Assembly (NCBI GenBank): GCA_019454125.1
Contig: CP075365.1
Location: 1,730,218 to 1,794,217 of the forward strand
Source: Fimbriimonadaceae bacterium
GTDB taxonomy: Bacteria; Armatimonadota; Fimbriimonadia; Fimbriimonadales; Fimbriimonadaceae
Reading direction: 5' to 3'
DNA: 64,000 nt
The notes under the pieces were generated by a model, which saw only the letters and a list, made by a program, of their open reading frames with translations, did not search any database and had not been told where the DNA came from. A program made the translations under genes and the position numbers. Positions 3,859 through 40,104 of the stretch are shown here, piece by piece (the first letter of the stretch is position 1; every line of letters begins with the position of its first letter).

Positions 3859-6255
3859 TTATGTCCTTGTTGTTATGAGTTCTCGAGAGGCAGGGGACGT
3901 TTCTGTCCGGACAGGTTGGGCCGCCGTCTTGGGCACGCGTTGGCGTCGGTAGAGGGCGGCGAGGATGCCACCAAGGGTCATGGTGCCGGTTCCAAGCCAC
4001 ACCAGGCCCGTGAAGGGTTTGTTGAAGACCTCGACGGGGTAGATCATCGCGTCCTGTTCGAACACGATGCGGACCGATCCGTCCGCGGCGTCCATACCGG
4101 TCATCTTCAGGCGAAGGTCTTGACCCACGCCGACGGGATGGTTGATCGGGCCACCCTCGCCTAGCTCCATTTGGGGCTGGAGTTCCGTGACGTTCTCACC
4201 GTCGGTCAACTCGATGCGTGCGCCGAACTTCGTGCCTGTCACGCCGGCCTCACCTTCGCGGGTCATGCCCAGGTACTTGATCTTCCTTTTGTTGTCGATG
4301 GTGAGTTCTCCACCTTTTTTGAGCGAGAACTCGCGGCTCGTCTGGGGCTGCGGCGGGTAAAGGGTCACGTAGACGTCGTGGGCCGCATAGCGCTGGATCG
4401 AAGGCCACTGAACGGGGGTCAGTTCGCCGCCACCCATTTGGGTGTAGTAAAGGCCCGGCTTGGCGACGAAGAGGGGCTTTGTCGCATCCTTGCCCTTCGC
4501 GTCGAAGACCTTTATGAGCACTTTGTTCTCCTTGTCCGTAAGGTCAGACGTTCGACCGTCCAGCATCAGCACGTAGTCAAGGATCCGCGCCGGGTGGCCC
4601 TCCATCACGACCCCTTGCTCATGCCGTTCGAAGCCGCGCGAGAGAATGAGGCCGGCCAGAAGGACTGCAACGCCGATGTGGGACACGAACGAACCCATCC
4701 CGAGCTTTGAGGCTCTGGCCAACTCGACCATTCGCACGCCGTTTGCGACCAGCACGAAGAGGCAGGTTCCGACCAGGATCAAGACCCAGGGCAACCCGGG
4801 GACTTGCATGTTCATCGGGAAGGTGACCGACTTCGTCAAGTCAGCAATGCCCGCCATCGGCGTGAACTTGAGCCCGATGAGGGCGAAGCCTAGGAGGCCG
4901 ATGGTCACGCAAAACGCGGTGTAGGCCCGGCTAGCGAGCTCACGGGCCTTCATGCCCTTCCACGCGGCGAACGGCGCGACCGCCATCACCAGCATGAGTG
5001 GCACGAAGATGTACGGCAGCACCATGTGATAGGTGTGCTCCTCGACGACCGCCGGTTTGCGCCCGGAGAGCGCCATGAAGAGCGGCACGCTCATGCCGAT
5101 CATGGTGGCCACGCCCATCGCCGAGAGCAGGAGGACGCCGGTCCGGTAGAAGCCTTCACGGTTAAAGCCCTTGACCTCGTCCTCCGGCGCGTTCCGCTTG
5201 TCCTGGAAGTAGCGGACCCCCCAAAGGCCAAGGAAGCCCAGGGTCATGACGCTCATGAGGCCGATCAGGAGCTTCAGCGCGGAGCGGTCCATTTCCGCGA
5301 AGCTATGGACGCTGGCGTCGGCCAGGAAGCCCGACCTTGTGAGGAACGTGCCGTAAAGGAACGCAAGGAACGGCAGACCGCCAAGGGCGAGGTTCGTGAG
5401 TTTCCACTTGCCCCGCGAGGCTTGCACGATGAGGCCGTGGATGAACCCGGCGGTCAGCACCCAGGGGACGAAACTGACGTTCTCGACCGGGTCCCACATC
5501 CAGAACCCACCCCAACCGAGGGTCTCATAGGCCCAGAACCCGCCCATGCAAAGCCCGAGGCCGACTAGCGTGGTCGAGACGATGGCCCACGGTCTCACGA
5601 TCGGCACCCACTTGTCATAGTCGCGGATGATGAGCGCCGCCGTGGCGAGGGCGAAGAGCGCGGTCAGCGAACCAAAGCCCAGGAAGATCGTGGGGGGGTG
5701 GATGACGACCCAGTAGTTCTGGAGAGTCGGGGCGAGGCCGACGCCGTTGAGCGGCACCAGCGGCCTGCCCTCAAGCATGTTCAGCTTGAAAGGCGACTCA
5801 TAGGCGAGGATGCTCGCGATCGACCCCAAAAAGAGTGAGGTGACCGCCACATACCAACGCTTGTAAACGCCGGCTTTGGGCAGGACAAGGAGGCCGAAGA
5901 CGGCGGCGCAAACCCCCCAAAGAAGGAAGGAGCCCTCTTGGCCGGACCAGATGCCGGCGATCCGGTATTGCAGGGCGTTGCCGTGCTCGGCGTGCGCCCA
6001 GACATACGAAAATTCGAACCGGTCGTTGACGAACAGTGTCGCAAGGGCCGCGAACACGCCGAAGATTCCGGCGCACCCCGCGACGAAAGCCCACGAAGCG
6101 GCCTTCTCGCGCCACCTCGCGGGCGCGAAGACGGCCAGCAGGAAGGAGGCGGCAAAAAGGGTGGCGGTCAAAAGGACGAGCCCCCTGCCTATGTCTCCTG
6201 TTAACAGGGACCAGGATGGGGGGCTCGCGAAATCTGTGTGGGGCATCGTATCCAT
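3859..6255 (-). CDS. ccmF: CcmF/NrfE-type cytochrome c haem lyase
   Basis: Inner-membrane subunit of the system I haem lyase that attaches haem to apocytochrome CXXCH motifs. The 798-residue polytopic protein contains WSGQEGSFLLW (about residues 103-113), HPP (about 186-188) and the tryptophan-rich haem-binding WWD signature WGGFWMWDPVEN (about 248-259), then a large periplasmic domain near the C-terminus and a final helix. The length is a little above the usual 600-700. It lies inside the multihaem operon rather than in a ccm cluster, suggesting a lyase dedicated to these cytochromes. The start could be the ATG at 6255 or the one at 6246; no clear ribosome site is visible before either. Confidence 0.92.
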   Translation of the reverse strand: MDTMPHTDFASPPSWSLLTGDIGRGLVLLTATLFAASFLLAVFAPARWREKAASWAFVAGCAGIFGVFAALATLFVNDRFEFSYVWAHAEHGNALQYRIAGIWSGQEGSFLLWGVCAAVFGLLVLPKAGVYKRWYVAVTSLFLGSIASILAYESPFKLNMLEGRPLVPLNGVGLAPTLQNYWVVIHPPTIFLGFGSLTALFALATAALIIRDYDKWVPIVRPWAIVSTTLVGLGLCMGGFWAYETLGWGGFWMWDPVENVSFVPWVLTAGFIHGLIVQASRGKWKLTNLALGGLPFLAFLYGTFLTRSGFLADASVHSFAEMDRSALKLLIGLMSVMTLGFLGLWGVRYFQDKRNAPEDEVKGFNREGFYRTGVLLLSAMGVATMIGMSVPLFMALSGRKPAVVEEHTYHMVLPYIFVPLMLVMAVAPFAAWKGMKARELASRAYTAFCVTIGLLGFALIGLKFTPMAGIADLTKSVTFPMNMQVPGLPWVLILVGTCLFVLVANGVRMVELARASKLGMGSFVSHIGVAVLLAGLILSRGFERHEQGVVMEGHPARILDYVLMLDGRTSDLTDKENKVLIKVFDAKGKDATKPLFVAKPGLYYTQMGGGELTPVQWPSIQRYAAHDVYVTLYPPQPQTSREFSLKKGGELTIDNKRKIKYLGMTREGEAGVTGTKFGARIELTDGENVTELQPQMELGEGGPINHPVGVGQDLRLKMTGMDAADGSVRIVFEQDAMIYPVEVFNKPFTGLVWLGTGTMTLGGILAALYRRQRVPKTAAQPVRTETSPASRELITTRT

Positions 6256-33492: not shown

Positions 33493-35352
33493 CTAGGTTG
33501 GAAGCGGCAAGCCCATAGCCGCGAGCCACTCCCGGTGCTTTTTAATCCTCTCGCCCTCGTCGCTTGCCAGGTTGAAGGGGCGTCCGCGAGAGTCAATGAT
33601 GATTCCGATGGTGCCACCTTCCAGCCGCATCTGCCTTGACTTGCCCTTGCCCGCGCCGACGTCCATCGTCTTGCAGGGCTCGATCGTGACGTCCTTAAAC
33701 TCTCCCCGGCCGAGCGGGATGACCTTGATCTGGCCGTAAGGAAGCGCCTCGTTGATGCCGTCTCCGCGGAGGGTGACGACCGGCTCGGTCGAGTTCTTCG
33801 GGGCTGGGCCGACCGGCGCGACGCAGTGGCCAGCCTTCACGATGCAGTCGTATTCGAAGACCTCGCGCGCGGCCTGGTAGTGGTGCTCGCTGAGCACGCC
33901 CAGGTGCGGCATCATGAAGATCGAGTCGACCGTGAGCATGGTGACGCCCTCGGGCTCATAGGCGTCCATCATCATGAGCGCCGATTGGGCGCGGAGCGGG
34001 GCGTGGCTGAGGACGCCGCCCGAGCCGATGATCATGTCCAGCTTCATCATCTTGATGAGCGTCTCGCCCGTCGTCGCCTGCTCAAAGATCTGGCCGACGT
34101 CACGCTGCTGCTGGGTTCCTTTAAGGGTGCGGGCGAGCGACTTGTGGTGGTAGAAGGCCAGGCGCAGCGCCTCACGCGCGACGGCCTGCTCGATGAGCAG
34201 GTCTTCGTACGTCTGGGGAATCGTGGTCGGTCGGATCATCTTGTTCCGAAGCCGGTTTCGCACTTCGAACGGGTCGATCTTGAAGGGCAGCCAACGGGCG
34301 ATGTTCTCGGTGCCCGCCTCCTTCAGCACGTTGCAGATCGAGTAGCTCATGCCGAGGTTGGCCGAGACCGTGCGGTTATAGATGCCGTCGAAGACAGAGA
34401 AGACGTCCGTGGTCGCGCCGCCGATGTCGACGCCCAGGATGTTGATCCCCTCCTCGCGCGCATAGCTCTCCATGAGCTTGCCGACCGCGTTCGGGGTCGC
34501 CATCACTTCCTCGCTGGCCCAGTCGAGCAGCTTCGAATAGCCCGGCGCCTGTTGCATGACGTGCTCCAGGAAAAGCTCGTGGATCTCGTCGCGGGCGGGG
34601 CCGAGGTTCTCCTGCTCCAGGGTCGGCCGGATGTTGTCGACGACCTTCACCGCGATCGATTCGCCGAGGACTTGCTTGACCTCTTCGCGCACCTCGCGGT
34701 TGCCCGCGAAGATGACCGGCAGCTGCATATCGCCGAACCGCGGCTTGGGGTCGGCCCGGTGGATGACCTCGGCCATCTCGATCAGGTGGCTCTTCGTGCC
34801 GCCGTCGGTTCCGCCCGACATCAAGATGATGTCGGGGCGCAGCTTCCGCAACCGCTCGACTTTCTGGAAGTCTTTACGGCCGTCGTCGACCGCAAGGGTG
34901 TCCATCAAGATCGCGCCTGCACCCAGGGCGGCGCGCTCGGCCGATTCCGCGCTCATGGCCTTGACGACCCCCGCGACCATCATCTGCAGGCCGCCGCCGG
35001 CCGATGATGTGGAAACGTACATATCGCTTCCGTCGAGCTCGCCGGCCCGCGGCTGGGCTGGTTCGCCGTCCTTCAGCAGCCGCCAGACGGTGCCGTCCTT
35101 GATAAGCTTGCGGCGGCCGGGCTTGAAGCCTTCGGCTTCGGGAACGTCTGACTCCGTGATCTCCTCAAGCTCGGTCATGGCGTTCAGCACGCCGACGGTG
35201 ACGTCCTCGAACGGCTTTTCAACGGTCGTCGGCGCCTCTCCGCGCGCGACCAAGCGATACTGGCCGTTTGGGTTGCGCTCGATCAGGATCGCTTTGGTCG
35301 TTGTGGAGCCGCAGTCAGTGGCGACGATGCGCAGGACGTCCGGCTGGGACAT
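33493..35352 (-). CDS. MutL/GlmL-type glutamate mutase reactivase family protein
   Basis: A 619-residue ASKHA-fold ATPase related to GlmL, which reactivates adenosylcobalamin-dependent glutamate mutase. Visible features are the phosphate-1 motif VATDCGSTTTKAILIE, the second nucleotide loop ILGVDIGGATTDVFSVFDG, and IIGSGGVLSHAP. The start is the ATG at 35352 (MSQPDVLRIV); 18 upstream in-frame residues look non-coding. No mutase or cobalamin gene is adjacent, so the partner is elsewhere or the protein serves another enzyme. It is monocistronic between hairpins. Confidence 0.88.
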   Translation of the reverse strand: MSQPDVLRIVATDCGSTTTKAILIERNPNGQYRLVARGEAPTTVEKPFEDVTVGVLNAMTELEEITESDVPEAEGFKPGRRKLIKDGTVWRLLKDGEPAQPRAGELDGSDMYVSTSSAGGGLQMMVAGVVKAMSAESAERAALGAGAILMDTLAVDDGRKDFQKVERLRKLRPDIILMSGGTDGGTKSHLIEMAEVIHRADPKPRFGDMQLPVIFAGNREVREEVKQVLGESIAVKVVDNIRPTLEQENLGPARDEIHELFLEHVMQQAPGYSKLLDWASEEVMATPNAVGKLMESYAREEGINILGVDIGGATTDVFSVFDGIYNRTVSANLGMSYSICNVLKEAGTENIARWLPFKIDPFEVRNRLRNKMIRPTTIPQTYEDLLIEQAVAREALRLAFYHHKSLARTLKGTQQQRDVGQIFEQATTGETLIKMMKLDMIIGSGGVLSHAPLRAQSALMMMDAYEPEGVTMLTVDSIFMMPHLGVLSEHHYQAAREVFEYDCIVKAGHCVAPVGPAPKNSTEPVVTLRGDGINEALPYGQIKVIPLGRGEFKDVTIEPCKTMDVGAGKGKSRQMRLEGGTIGIIIDSRGRPFNLASDEGERIKKHREWLAAMGLPLPT

Positions 35353-35411
35353 GGGGCAGAGTATAGCCTTTGGCCGATCGCGGATGCGGCTTGAGGACGC
35401 GGCCATGCTTT

Positions 35412-35495: not shown

Positions 35496-36740
35496 TTAGA
35501 CAAAGCGGCCGTACTCGTCACGGTCGCGGTTGCGTGCCGCGCGCGACCGGTTGTCGTCATCGTCGTCATACCGACTGCGACTGCCGCCACGCGATCCGCC
35601 GCCGTAGTTAGATCGGCCGCCCCGGTCATCGTCGTCGTCGCTCGTGAATCGACCGTACTCGTCCCGGTCACGTTGCATCGCCGCGCGCTGGGCGCCTTCG
35701 GAACGGTGTCGGTGCTCCTCCGAGCTGATGTTGCGACCCCGGTCGTCGTCGCGGCCGCGGTATCCGCCCTGTGATCCGCCGCGATATTCATCGTTGTCAT
35801 ACCGGCCACCGCCACCGTTGTTGCCCCGGGAGCGATCGCCGCCACCGCCGTTTCGAGAGCGGCCGCGGTCGTCGTCGTCGTCCTGGCTCACGAAGCGGCC
35901 GTACTCGTCGCGCGGCATGTTCTCCGCACGGCGGGACCGGTCGCCATCGTCGCCGCCACGGCCCCTGCTCGAACCGTAACCGCCGCGGTCGTCGTCGTTG
36001 CGGCCCTGTCCGCCGCTGCGTCCATAGCTGCGCGATCGGCCGCGGTCGTCGTCGTCGTCCTGGCTCACGAAGCGGCCGTACTCGTCGCGCGGCATGCTCT
36101 CCGCACGGCGGGAGCGGTCGCCGTCGTCCCCGCCACGGCCCCTGCTCGAACCGTAACCGCCGCGGTCGTCGTCGTTGCGGCCCTGCCCGCCGCCGCTGCG
36201 GCCATAGTTGCGGGATCGGCCACGGTCGTCGTCGTCGTCTTGGCTCACGAAGCGGCCGTACTCGTCGCGCGGCATGCTCTCCGCACGGCGGGAGCGGTCG
36301 CCGTCGTCCCCGCTACGGCCCCTGCTCGAACCGTAACCGCCGCGGTCGTCGTCGTTCCGGCCCTGTCCGCCGCCGCTGCGTCCATAGCTGCGCGATCGGC
36401 CACGGTCGTCGTCGTCGTTACTCGTAAAGCGGCCGTACTCGTCGCGAGGCATGCTCTCCGCTCGGCGGGAGCGGCGGTCATAGTCGTCGTCCTGGTTCGA
36501 ACGGCCGCGCGAGCTTGAGCGGTCGTCTTCCTCATAGCGACTGCGGGACCGGCCACCACGGTCGTCGTCATCACTCACAAAACGGCCATATTCGTCGCGC
36601 TCTTGAGAGCGGGCGTTCCAGCCACGGTTGTCGTCGTCGTCGTTACGACCGCGCCCATAGCCGCCGCGATCCCGATCGTCGGACCGGCCGCCTCGGCGCT
36701 CGTCTTCGTCGCTTCGATATCGTTCACTTGTTCTCGGCAT
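35496..36740 (-). CDS. Low-complexity protein built of DEYGRF repeats
   Basis: A 414-residue, highly charged protein of Asp, Arg, Gly, Ser and Tyr, probably disordered. Ten or so copies of R-DEYGRF(V/T)S(Q/N)DDDDRG are present; in the middle the unit expands to near-identical 59-60-residue repeats containing RSYGRSGGGQGRNDDDRGGYGSSRGR. The start is the ATG at 36740, with a GTG three codons before. There is no signal peptide. Short DEYGRF motifs occur in some bacterial stress-related proteins, but such a long array is unusual. It is adjacent to and co-oriented with the YciF-like gene, from which a terminator separates it. Confidence 0.75.
   Translation of the reverse strand: MPRTSERYRSDEDERRGGRSDDRDRGGYGRGRNDDDDNRGWNARSQERDEYGRFVSDDDDRGGRSRSRYEEDDRSSSRGRSNQDDDYDRRSRRAESMPRDEYGRFTSNDDDDRGRSRSYGRSGGGQGRNDDDRGGYGSSRGRSGDDGDRSRRAESMPRDEYGRFVSQDDDDDRGRSRNYGRSGGGQGRNDDDRGGYGSSRGRGGDDGDRSRRAESMPRDEYGRFVSQDDDDDRGRSRSYGRSGGQGRNDDDRGGYGSSRGRGGDDGDRSRRAENMPRDEYGRFVSQDDDDDRGRSRNGGGGDRSRGNNGGGGRYDNDEYRGGSQGGYRGRDDDRGRNISSEEHRHRSEGAQRAAMQRDRDEYGRFTSDDDDDRGGRSNYGGGSRGGSRSRYDDDDDNRSRAARNRDRDEYGRFV
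35880..36600 (-). repeat. Tandem 177-180 bp coding repeats
   Basis: Within the DEYGRF gene, AAGCGGCCGTACTCGTCGCG recurs at intervals of 177, 180 and 177 bp (ending near 35910, 36087, 36267 and 36444). Flanking bases are nearly identical between copies, indicating recent duplication and likely copy-number change. Confidence 0.85.
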
Positions 36741-36874
36741 TGTGATCACCGGCTTGGGCGCTTCACAGCCCTCGCCATTGGGAGATTCACGGGCAGAGCG
36801 CTAAAAGCCCGGACAGAACCCTGGAGTGCCGCCTAGAAATCCCATAAGAACTGCGAGGTAATAAACTAAAACGC

Positions 36875-36904
36875 AAGGGCACCACACATTCTGGTGGCGC
36901 CCTT
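36875..36904 (-). terminator. Rho-independent terminator after the YciF-like gene
   Basis: On the minus strand AAGGGC(G)CCACCA pairs with TGTGGTGCCCTT, followed by GCGTTTTAGTTTATT. It lies 9 bp beyond the stop of the YciF-fusion gene. Confidence 0.8.
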
Positions 36905-36913
36905 CTCGGTTTT

Positions 36914-38134
36914 TCAACCTATTCGGCATCGTCGGGAGCGGGAGCGGTAATCGCCCTCATCCTCGTCGTTGAAACCTCGCCCACGGTCGTCCTCGTACCC
37001 GTTGCTTTCACGGCTGGAACGGCCCCAGTTCGAAGAGGCTGGCCGGCCCTGGCCGGATCGCTCGTACCGACCCTCTCCGGAACCCCCGTAACCGCCTTCG
37101 TACGACTCGCGATTGCCGCTGGATCCGTAGGAGCCGCCCGCCCTCCTGCCGCGTTGCTCGCCATAGCCGTCGCCTGAGCCGCTGCCATAGCCCTGGCTTG
37201 AGCCGCCACCCGAGCCCTGTCGATAGGAGTAGCCCTGATCGTCGTCCTCGGAGAACCGGCTGCGCCGATAACCGGCCTCGCGAGAGCCGTCGTTGTCGTC
37301 CTCGTAATACCCGCGGCTATAAGAGTCTTGGTCGCCGCCCCGTCGGTAATCGTCTTGCTGGCCGGACGAACCACGTCGGGTGCCTTCCGACCGCCCTTCG
37401 TCATAGCTTCGCGCACTCTGCTGGTCGTAGCCGCCGCTGTATCCGCCGCGTCCGTAGCCCTCTTGCGAAGACTGCCGGCCGTACTCCTGCAACGAGGGGC
37501 GGCGCAAAGAAGGGCCGCGATAGCGCTGGCTCGGAGTCATGTCGAAGGTTTCGACGACGACCATAAACCGTTCCGTCTGCCGCTTGTTCTGCATCAGTTC
37601 GTCGCTGGCGAAGTCGAAAAGGTCCGAAGCGGCGTTGATCTCTTCTTGGAGCGATTGTTTGAACACATCGACCATCTCTTCCTTCTGAAGGCACTTGGCT
37701 AGGACGACAAGCGCGCTGTAAGACGCGATCTCGTAGTGCTCGATCTTGAGCAACCAGGCCGCGAGGGTCGGGTCGTGCTCGTCCCCAGTGGGCAGGGACG
37801 CCATCATTTGGTCGCCTTCCTTAAGAATCGCTTCCATTGCTTCGCACTTCTTTCCGTCCGCCTTCTCGCCTAAGCTCGACAAGATCTTTTCAAGTCGGTC
37901 GCACTCTCTATCCGTCTCCTTCCTATGAGACTCTAACGACCTTTTTAACTCACGGTTTTTGACTTTGCCGATCATCTCCGGCAGCTTCGCCGCGATCTGT
38001 TGTTCGGCACTCAGCATGTCCTTCAGCTGCGTGACGAAAACCTTTGACAATTCGCTCTGGGAATTGTTCTTAGAGCTGGTCTTATCGTTGCGCTGGGAAG
38101 TGGTTTCGGTTTCGGTTCCTTGCTTGTCCGCCAT
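36914..38134 (-). CDS. YciF/DUF892 ferritin-like domain fused to Gly/Ser/Tyr/Arg-rich disordered tail
   Basis: A 406-residue protein. Residues about 28-190 form a DUF892 (YciF-like) four-helix ferritin-like domain with ELSKVFVTQLKDMLSAEQQI, SHRKETDRECDRLEKIL, KIEHYEIASYSALVVLAK and LQEEINAASDLF, including the expected carboxylate and His metal ligands. The remaining 200 residues are a low-complexity tail rich in GGY, RGG-like, SYG and DDD motifs. The family is linked to stress responses, but such a tail is not usual. The start is the ATG at 38134; upstream in-frame sequence has no coding character. It is next to the DEYGRF repeat gene. Confidence 0.85.
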   Translation of the reverse strand: MADKQGTETETTSQRNDKTSSKNNSQSELSKVFVTQLKDMLSAEQQIAAKLPEMIGKVKNRELKRSLESHRKETDRECDRLEKILSSLGEKADGKKCEAMEAILKEGDQMMASLPTGDEHDPTLAAWLLKIEHYEIASYSALVVLAKCLQKEEMVDVFKQSLQEEINAASDLFDFASDELMQNKRQTERFMVVVETFDMTPSQRYRGPSLRRPSLQEYGRQSSQEGYGRGGYSGGYDQQSARSYDEGRSEGTRRGSSGQQDDYRRGGDQDSYSRGYYEDDNDGSREAGYRRSRFSEDDDQGYSYRQGSGGGSSQGYGSGSGDGYGEQRGRRAGGSYGSSGNRESYEGGYGGSGEGRYERSGQGRPASSNWGRSSRESNGYEDDRGRGFNDEDEGDYRSRSRRCRIG

Positions 38135-39558: not shown

Positions 39559-40104
39559 TTACTTGCTGCGTCGGCGAGCAACGAGAGCCGCGAGGCCAGC
39601 GCCCAGCGCGATCATCGAAGCCGGCTCCGGCACGGCGTACGTGCGGAACGTGTAGTCGAACGTCGGGAACGGCTGGTAGCCCGGGTTGGCGTAAACCTGG
39701 CCGCGGCTGTACGGGTCGTTGACCGAACCGGCGATGCCGAGGCTGGTGTTGCCGTCGAACACGAGGAAGTAAGTCGTGTTCGGGGCGATGTTGACCTGGC
39801 TCCAGAACACGTCTACCCAAGTGCCGGCCGTGCCGCGGGCGCTGCCCGAAGCGAGCATGACGCCGCCAGCGTTCGGCAGCTTGTCCCAAAGGGAAATGCG
39901 AACGTTGTCGGAGGAACCGATGCCAGGCTGCAGGAAGATGCCTGCGCCGACGATGTTGTTCGCGCTCTGCTGGAACGACTGAGCGAGGTCACCCTGCGAG
40001 AACGCGGCCATGTAAACCGAGTTGTCGGGCTGGTTCTGGTCAATAACTTGGGCGGCAGCCATTCCGGCGACGCCAGCAAGCGCAACTAAGGCGAGCTTTT
40101 TCAT
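39559..40104 (-). CDS. PEP-CTERM sorting domain protein, 181 residues
   Basis: A secreted protein with signal peptide MKKLALVALAGVAGMAAAQ and the C-terminal sorting tail VPEPASMIALGAGLAALVARRRSK: a VPEP motif, membrane helix and Arg-rich end, which exosortase-type enzymes cleave. The middle is a compact beta domain (DNVRISLWDKLPNAGG, WVDVFWSQVNIAPNTTYFLVFDG) like jelly-roll domains of other PEP-CTERM proteins. It is probably exported to the cell surface or exopolysaccharide layer. It has its own promoter region of about 145 bp and a terminator. No exosortase gene is in the window. Confidence 0.9.
   Translation of the reverse strand: MKKLALVALAGVAGMAAAQVIDQNQPDNSVYMAAFSQGDLAQSFQQSANNIVGAGIFLQPGIGSSDNVRISLWDKLPNAGGVMLASGSARGTAGTWVDVFWSQVNIAPNTTYFLVFDGNTSLGIAGSVNDPYSRGQVYANPGYQPFPTFDYTFRTYAVPEPASMIALGAGLAALVARRRSK

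Follow-up and report, generated by a model that had tools for sequence, protein, structure and literature searches.

A lysine-free DEYGRF repeat encoded beside, or fused to, ferritin-like four-helix proteins: a candidate disordered partner module

The locus and its two genes

The stretch of DNA analysed here (the window) comprises 64,000 nucleotides of the genome of a Fimbriimonadaceae bacterium, which is a single contig of 2.65 Mb. Two genes lie side by side on its minus strand, as the initial annotation had described: one for a YciF-type protein with a tail of about 200 residues (P0002, 406 aa, 36914-38134), the other for a free repeat protein with seven copies of RDEYGRF (P0001, 414 aa, 35496-36740), delimited by translation, composition and alignment of the junctions. 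Between them lies a terminator-like hairpin followed by a weak T tract (36875-36904, minus strand), found by pattern scan and RNA folding; the fold of 36860-36915 has a free energy of -22.7 kcal/mol (z = -4.96).

Residues 29-180 of P0002 constitute a DUF892 domain (Pfam PF05974, E = 2.1e-37; 129.1 bits against a curated cutoff of 23.7), and sequence search and Foldseek both identified 2gyq, 4eru and 2gs4 as its relatives in the PDB. In the AlphaFold2 model this domain adopts the YciF four-helix fold (rmsd 1.0-1.4 to 2gyq and 2gs4), with pLDDT mostly above 90. Foldseek ranks YciF structures first, followed by Dps and bacterioferritins with E-values of about 0.01-0.05; P0002 is thus like these ferritin-like proteins in its four-helix fold, but the matches to them are weak, and the quaternary structure of YciF-type proteins is unlike that of ferritin (PMC5126674). 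When E. coli overexpresses DUF892 proteins, these sequester iron (PMC5126674). Five residues of P0002 (E44, H70, E132, E135 and E165) are invariant among 10 homologues, a pattern compatible with metal binding but no proof of it.

The remainder of P0002, from residue 199 to 406 (36917-37540, minus strand), is a Gly/Ser/Arg/Tyr-rich tail of 208 residues, for which AlphaFold2 predicts disorder, with pLDDT below 50 nearly throughout from residue 197. DEYGRF was considered as an ancestral motif of this tail and set aside, as the best match is not significant (P = 0.087); a second site has P = 0.02.

In P0001 the repeat is unmistakable. DEYGRF occurs seven times, against none in composition-preserving shuffles, and part of the gene consists of 3.5 tandem copies of a 180-bp unit (93%; 35860-36474, minus strand), recovered by Tandem Repeats Finder and by a second repeat search. 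The seven identical RDEYGRF copies are spelled in five ways in the DNA and differ only synonymously. The two tails had been said to share RGG, SYG and DDD features. For P0001 this holds, with 11 RGG against 3.3 in composition-preserving shuffles; for the tail of P0002 it does not, as RGG is not enriched there (2 against 1.7 expected from such shuffles) and SYG and DDD occur once each. P0001 is glycine-rich (18.8% Gly) and strongly hydrophilic (GRAVY -2.23), and by these criteria is hydrophilin-like.

P0001 could not be assigned to a family: neither Pfam nor NCBIfam gave a match, and no model in either collection covers the repeat in P0001 or its relatives. The Pfam KGG model likewise has no match in P0001 or in ten relatives, and the Lys-Gly-Gly motif itself is absent from P0001, which contains no lysine. 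Neither DEYGRF nor GWFGDSEGH-type peptides occur in the open-access papers searched.

Pairing of the repeat with four-helix proteins across genomes

Homologues of the repeat were found by DNA patterns, as a homology search with the repeat returned none, probably because of low-complexity filtering. Among 291 genomes of the phylum, the pattern is confined to that of the window and to two related ones, three in all and every time with DUF892; a fourth match is interrupted by a stop codon and is left out of this count. In the two relatives (L010 and L011) a single ORF encodes the DUF892 protein with the DEYGRF repeat at its C-terminal end, and in a third relative (L008) a DUF892 protein carries a DSQGRF / GWRGDPQGHSEAAREGW tail, a motif that accompanies DEYGRF in Proteobacteria. 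A single pattern scan of genome_contigs, with one genome per species and 84,980 species, yielded 26 stretches; 17 of these, all recorded as proteobacterial, encode such repeat proteins, as do two pieces of the L010 contig.

The window, L010, L011 and the 17 loci from the scan together make up 20 loci found through DEYGRF, without use of DUF892 or HHE as bait. At 18 of the 20, a DUF892 or hemerythrin HHE domain, or both, is fused to the repeat, encoded next to it or found at a distance of no more than about 4 kb; the two exceptions, L032 and L043, have neither. Seven unrelated matches from the same scan have no DUF892 or HHE partner. In Proteobacteria the repeat is usually fused to an HHE domain, which scores above the Pfam cutoff in four fusions (L034, L040, L049 and L052), is recognized by NCBIfam below cutoff in L031 and L076, and in Rhodobacterales is recognized by alignment alone. 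A same-strand DUF892 gene adjoins that of the repeat at five loci (L050, L037, L039, L051 and L053) and is present in the flanking sequence of three more (L041, L047 and L078). One of these, the alphaproteobacterial L050, has the two-gene order of the window and likewise an intergenic hairpin.

The pairing of the repeat with four-helix proteins is not due to chance, and a functional link between the two is in our judgement very probable. Co-occurrence across genomes, which the initial annotation had named as a check, is thus borne out by fusion and adjacency in two phyla. A phylogenetic tree of DUF892 has long branches and neither supports nor opposes a single origin of the domains linked to DEYGRF. 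L077 was rejected as a split HHE/DEYGRF locus, the next gene being unrelated, and two IMG/VR pattern matches (L084 and L085) were set aside, as they fall within or next to ORFs that lack the repeat.

Composition of the repeat tails

P0001 and the tail of P0002 have in common the complete absence of lysine and a number of arginines close to that of aspartate plus glutamate (94 against 102 in P0001, for a net charge of -8, and 34 against 34 in the tail). The N-terminal 198 residues of P0002, by comparison, contain 20 Lys and 8 Arg. This composition extends to the family at large: lysine is absent from 18 of 19 repeat tails, with a single lysine in the remaining one, while arginine makes up 16-26%. 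It extends also to a metagenome-assembled genome of Rickettsiaceae in which the locus has 37% G+C. Given the Lys:Arg ratio of each fused protein's own N-terminal part, the probability of finding no lysine ranges from 9e-5 to 2e-52.

The net charge of the 19 tails lies between -1 and -10, and the scatter of its z-scores is 0.16 against 1 for independent draws, a rough comparison as the tails repeat internally. Arg-rich disordered proteins phase-separate more easily than Lys-rich ones (PMC9705477), and a composition with Arg as the only basic residue of the pair speaks in favour of condensation. Charges in the repeats are well mixed rather than blocky and so provide no additional electrostatic drive.

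An internal start site in fused genes

Standalone repeat genes begin with M-x-R (MPRTSER in the window, MNRNSN in L037, MNRYSN in L050 and MSRNRN in L046). Most fused ORFs contain a similar in-frame methionine at the junction, preceded by a strong Shine-Dalgarno sequence 5 or 8 nt upstream, and the MPRT with which P0001 begins resembles the residues found at this internal start. A Shine-Dalgarno match of at least 5 nt precedes 16 of 16 junction ATGs and 8 of 81 other in-frame ATGs; at 6 nt or more the counts are 14 of 16 and 1 of 81, two of the junction sites being slightly weaker with 5 nt matched. AGGAG is mostly kept even as the residues that it encodes vary (KE, EE or QE). The 16 frames come from related lineages, and after collapse to nine lineages, a grouping that reflects our own judgement, the junction signal is still highly significant (P = 3e-8). 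One of the 16 frames (L039) has an upstream part that cannot be recognized as HHE; there the frame (4091-5680) ends, ahead of the repeat, like an HHE linker, and it is possibly a frameshifted HHE gene in which the internal start is intact.

The coincidence of a Shine-Dalgarno sequence with an ATG at the starting residue of standalone genes indicates that both an attached and a free repeat are probably made, and from these sequence signals we consider it likely that the fused genes yield two products, the fusion and the free repeat. The main alternative to a second start is that the internal Shine-Dalgarno sequence serves as a pause site for folding of the N-terminal domain, with the fusion as the only product, as internal sites of this kind do pause ribosomes in Caulobacter (PMC4117421). 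Pausing, however, requires no ATG, and one follows the Shine-Dalgarno sequence by 5 or 8 nt in all 16 frames; moreover, standalone genes begin at the same residue with a similar N-terminus. We therefore regard a pause site as quite improbable.

In the window, the attached and free repeats are probably supplied by two genes. P0002 has no in-frame Shine-Dalgarno/ATG site ahead of its tail, which fits with P0001 as the source of the free form. The ribosome site of P0001 itself is weak.

A precedent for two products from one ORF is found in two-polypeptide phage endolysins, in which an in-frame internal start gives rise to a C-terminal product in addition to the full-length protein, and the two can co-assemble with skewed stoichiometry (PMC9430671). 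Endolysins are, however, phage lysis enzymes whose products have been demonstrated experimentally, whereas here a disordered polymer is predicted as the additional product.

HHE partners and metal ligands

The His/Glu ligands of the HHE domain are present in five fusions (L031, L034, L049, L052 and L076) and in L040 as far as it is sequenced. In the HHE-like domains of Rhodobacterales (L051, L053, L054, L047, L041 and L078) they have been lost stepwise, partly or wholly, yet the repeat tail and the internal start site persist; metal storage cannot, therefore, be the whole story. The AlphaFold2 model of the Rhodobacterales N-terminal domain has a mean pLDDT of 56 and no match in the PDB. Iron handling as the function shared by all members is possible, but we lean against it.

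Seven of the HHE domains (L031, L034, L040, L046, L049, L052 and L076) match NCBIfam NF053874, the family of PA2171, with 54-81 bits. As these scores are far below the cutoff of 190 bits, we take the domains to be distant homologues of that family and not equivalogs. No HHE protein was found in the window genome, in which DUF892 is thus the sole known partner.

Genomic context

The initial annotation had proposed a stress-related role, and the context agrees with it: the YciF family is one indication, and another is a stress island shared by the two relatives (L082, 273-16747; L083, 811-15998) with a DUF892-DEYGRF fusion at one end. The order of genes is response regulator, ECF sigma factor, DUF892, histidine kinase, glycosyltransferase, LigD, Ku and then the fusion; these assignments were checked with Pfam in L082, and one relative has a confirmed BON-domain protein. 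In the window genome, Ku and a second DUF892 gene lie far from the pair, and the island is thus not conserved there. This second DUF892 gene (L002, 1441-3483) is tail-less and about 147 kb away; its neighbours encode a response regulator and a sigma factor as in the island of the relatives, from which the DEYGRF pair has therefore become separated.

At L052 the fusion is flanked by a gene that appears Ku-like by eye, and EcfG-like sequences (GGAAC-N15/16-CGTT) lie just upstream of the fusion (5896-5920, minus strand) and of the divergent Ku-like gene (6025-6049, plus strand). An EcfG promoter was considered as a common regulator and rejected, as it is matched at these two genes and not upstream of the others: no EcfG-like motif precedes the window genes or the DUF892 genes of the relatives, and no common stress promoter was found. 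Genes of the sigma-70 family lie near the HHE-DEYGRF fusion in Paracoccus (L041, 6320-6832, minus strand, EcfG-like by eye; L078, 1616-2089, minus strand, annotated as such). The window itself also contains, by eye, a long ORF resembling a MutL/glutamate-mutase-type ATPase (33493-35406, minus strand) and a small secreted protein whose C-terminus carries a PEP-CTERM-like sorting signal, VPEPASMIALGAGLAALVARRRSK (39559-40104, minus strand).

Comparison with known systems

The closest precedent is yciG-yciF-yciE of E. coli and Salmonella, in which a disordered repeat protein is also encoded beside a DUF892 protein; the three genes are consecutive on one strand in E. coli MG1655. Given this adjacency of yciG and yciF, KGG proteins, which are stress-related intrinsically disordered proteins (PMC7161692), can be seen as disordered neighbours of YciF. 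The position of a YciG-type gene, beside DUF892, is found also for the repeat genes of the window, L037, L050 and others, and the proteobacterial motif GWFGDSEGHAEAARRGW and YciG GNFKNDPQRASEAGKKGG are alike by eye. YciG, however, is a Lys-rich protein of 59 aa, whereas P0001 has 414 aa, no lysine, DEYGRF units and no KGG match; nor is YciF fused to YciG, unlike DUF892 to DEYGRF. By analogy, our best reading is that the pair formed by the DEYGRF repeat and a four-helix protein works like the yciG-yciF pair, although the repeat does not belong to the KGG family. Hence the claim that no such system had been described can be kept for the repeat, and must be given up for the pairing, to which yciG-yciF is a close functional precedent; what is new is the repeat itself and the unusual fusion architecture with its internal start.

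In Pseudomonas aeruginosa, the KGG protein PA2146 binds PA2184 in two-hybrid and pulldown assays, and its neighbourhood ties it to PA2171 as well as to the NHEJ protein PA2150 (PMC9262955). A point of likeness to this system is that the HHE partners described here are distant homologues of PA2171; the difference is that PA2146, PA2184 and PA2171 are encoded by separate small genes, with neither an Arg/Asp repeat nor a fusion.

Proposed mechanism and alternatives

The anatomy of the genes, their fusions and adjacency, their composition and the conserved internal ribosome site were observed directly. On this basis we propose that P0002 and P0001 may form a single stress module, in which a four-helix protein is combined with a Lys-free, charge-neutral polymer in attached and free forms; we hold the case for this to be nearly balanced, tipping slightly to the negative. 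The polymer, made up of Arg, Asp, Gly, Ser and Tyr with DEYGRF repeats, would be supplied both attached to the four-helix domain and free. In fused relatives one gene would give both forms through the in-frame internal ribosome site, and in the window they would come from two genes, as the tail of P0002 and as P0001. Attached tails would gather four-helix proteins in a network of Arg, Tyr and Asp contacts, while the free polymer would tune its density, and the outcome would be stress-induced, condensate-like clusters holding the iron-type domains or their clients. Such a scheme supposes two products, binding between them, clustering and induction by stress; the protected target would be iron or redox in the first place, with the ribosome or DNA as possible alternatives. 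The simplest function would be a coating or gathering of four-helix domains under stress.

The steps of this proposal differ in strength. Our best reading takes the repeat to be a disordered partner of ferritin-like proteins that is linked to stress and probably clusters them; that the system forms a condensate is tentative, and we hold it to be somewhat less likely than not. The proposal of the initial annotation, a stress-induced condensate that may store metal or shield DNA, is supported in part, as to co-occurrence and stress context. A body set by the ratio of attached to free DEYGRF polymer, through internal starts or split genes and common to DUF892 and HHE partners, is more speculative still, and we regard it as rather doubtful. 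Counted against the proposal are the well-mixed charges, the loss of HHE ligands, the intergenic hairpin, the lack of a significant DEYGRF match in the P0002 tail and the lack of a common promoter.

The repeat might instead be a soluble protectant of the LEA, hydrophilin or KGG-like kind, dispersed in the cell and sharing with its partners only a stress neighbourhood, the fusions being a by-product. The hydropathy and glycine content of P0001, its lack of a hydrophobic core, the LigD/Ku island and the precedent of KGG neighbours of YciF as stress-related disordered proteins (PMC7161692) are all in keeping with such a role, but it leaves unexplained why fusion has repeatedly involved the same partner classes, and why lysine, which would hydrate equally well, is strictly absent at 16-26% Arg. 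We consider it unlikely, with an appreciable chance of being right. A tether to ribosomes or nucleic acids is improbable. Here the four-helix domain would bind ribosomes, as PA2171 does, or DNA, and the Arg-rich tail would bind RNA or DNA or pack inactive ribosomes in dormancy; distant homology of several HHE partners to the ribosome-binding persister family NF053874, and the dispensability of the HHE metal site in Rhodobacterales, speak for this, whereas the low NF053874 scores, which do not indicate equivalogs, the lack of HHE in the window genome and the slightly negative net charge of the tails, unfavourable for nucleic-acid binding, speak against it. Finally, the tandem DNA repeats of the window might suggest a functionless product of low-complexity slippage, carried along by chance. 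This is contradicted already by seven motif copies that differ only synonymously, and by a motif, composition, start site and set of partners common to Armatimonadota and Proteobacteria, and its probability is negligible.

Significance

Taken as sequence evidence, these results suggest an undescribed disordered partner module of iron-type four-helix proteins. The role of YciF-type proteins and their disordered neighbours is a long-open question, and a fused version of the repeat with a built-in free form makes the role of the disordered partner of a ferritin-like stress protein directly testable. The module would also give condensate physics a natural Arg-only, net-neutral polymer, and would exemplify how annotation misses a second product inside genes labelled 'hemerythrin domain-containing protein'.
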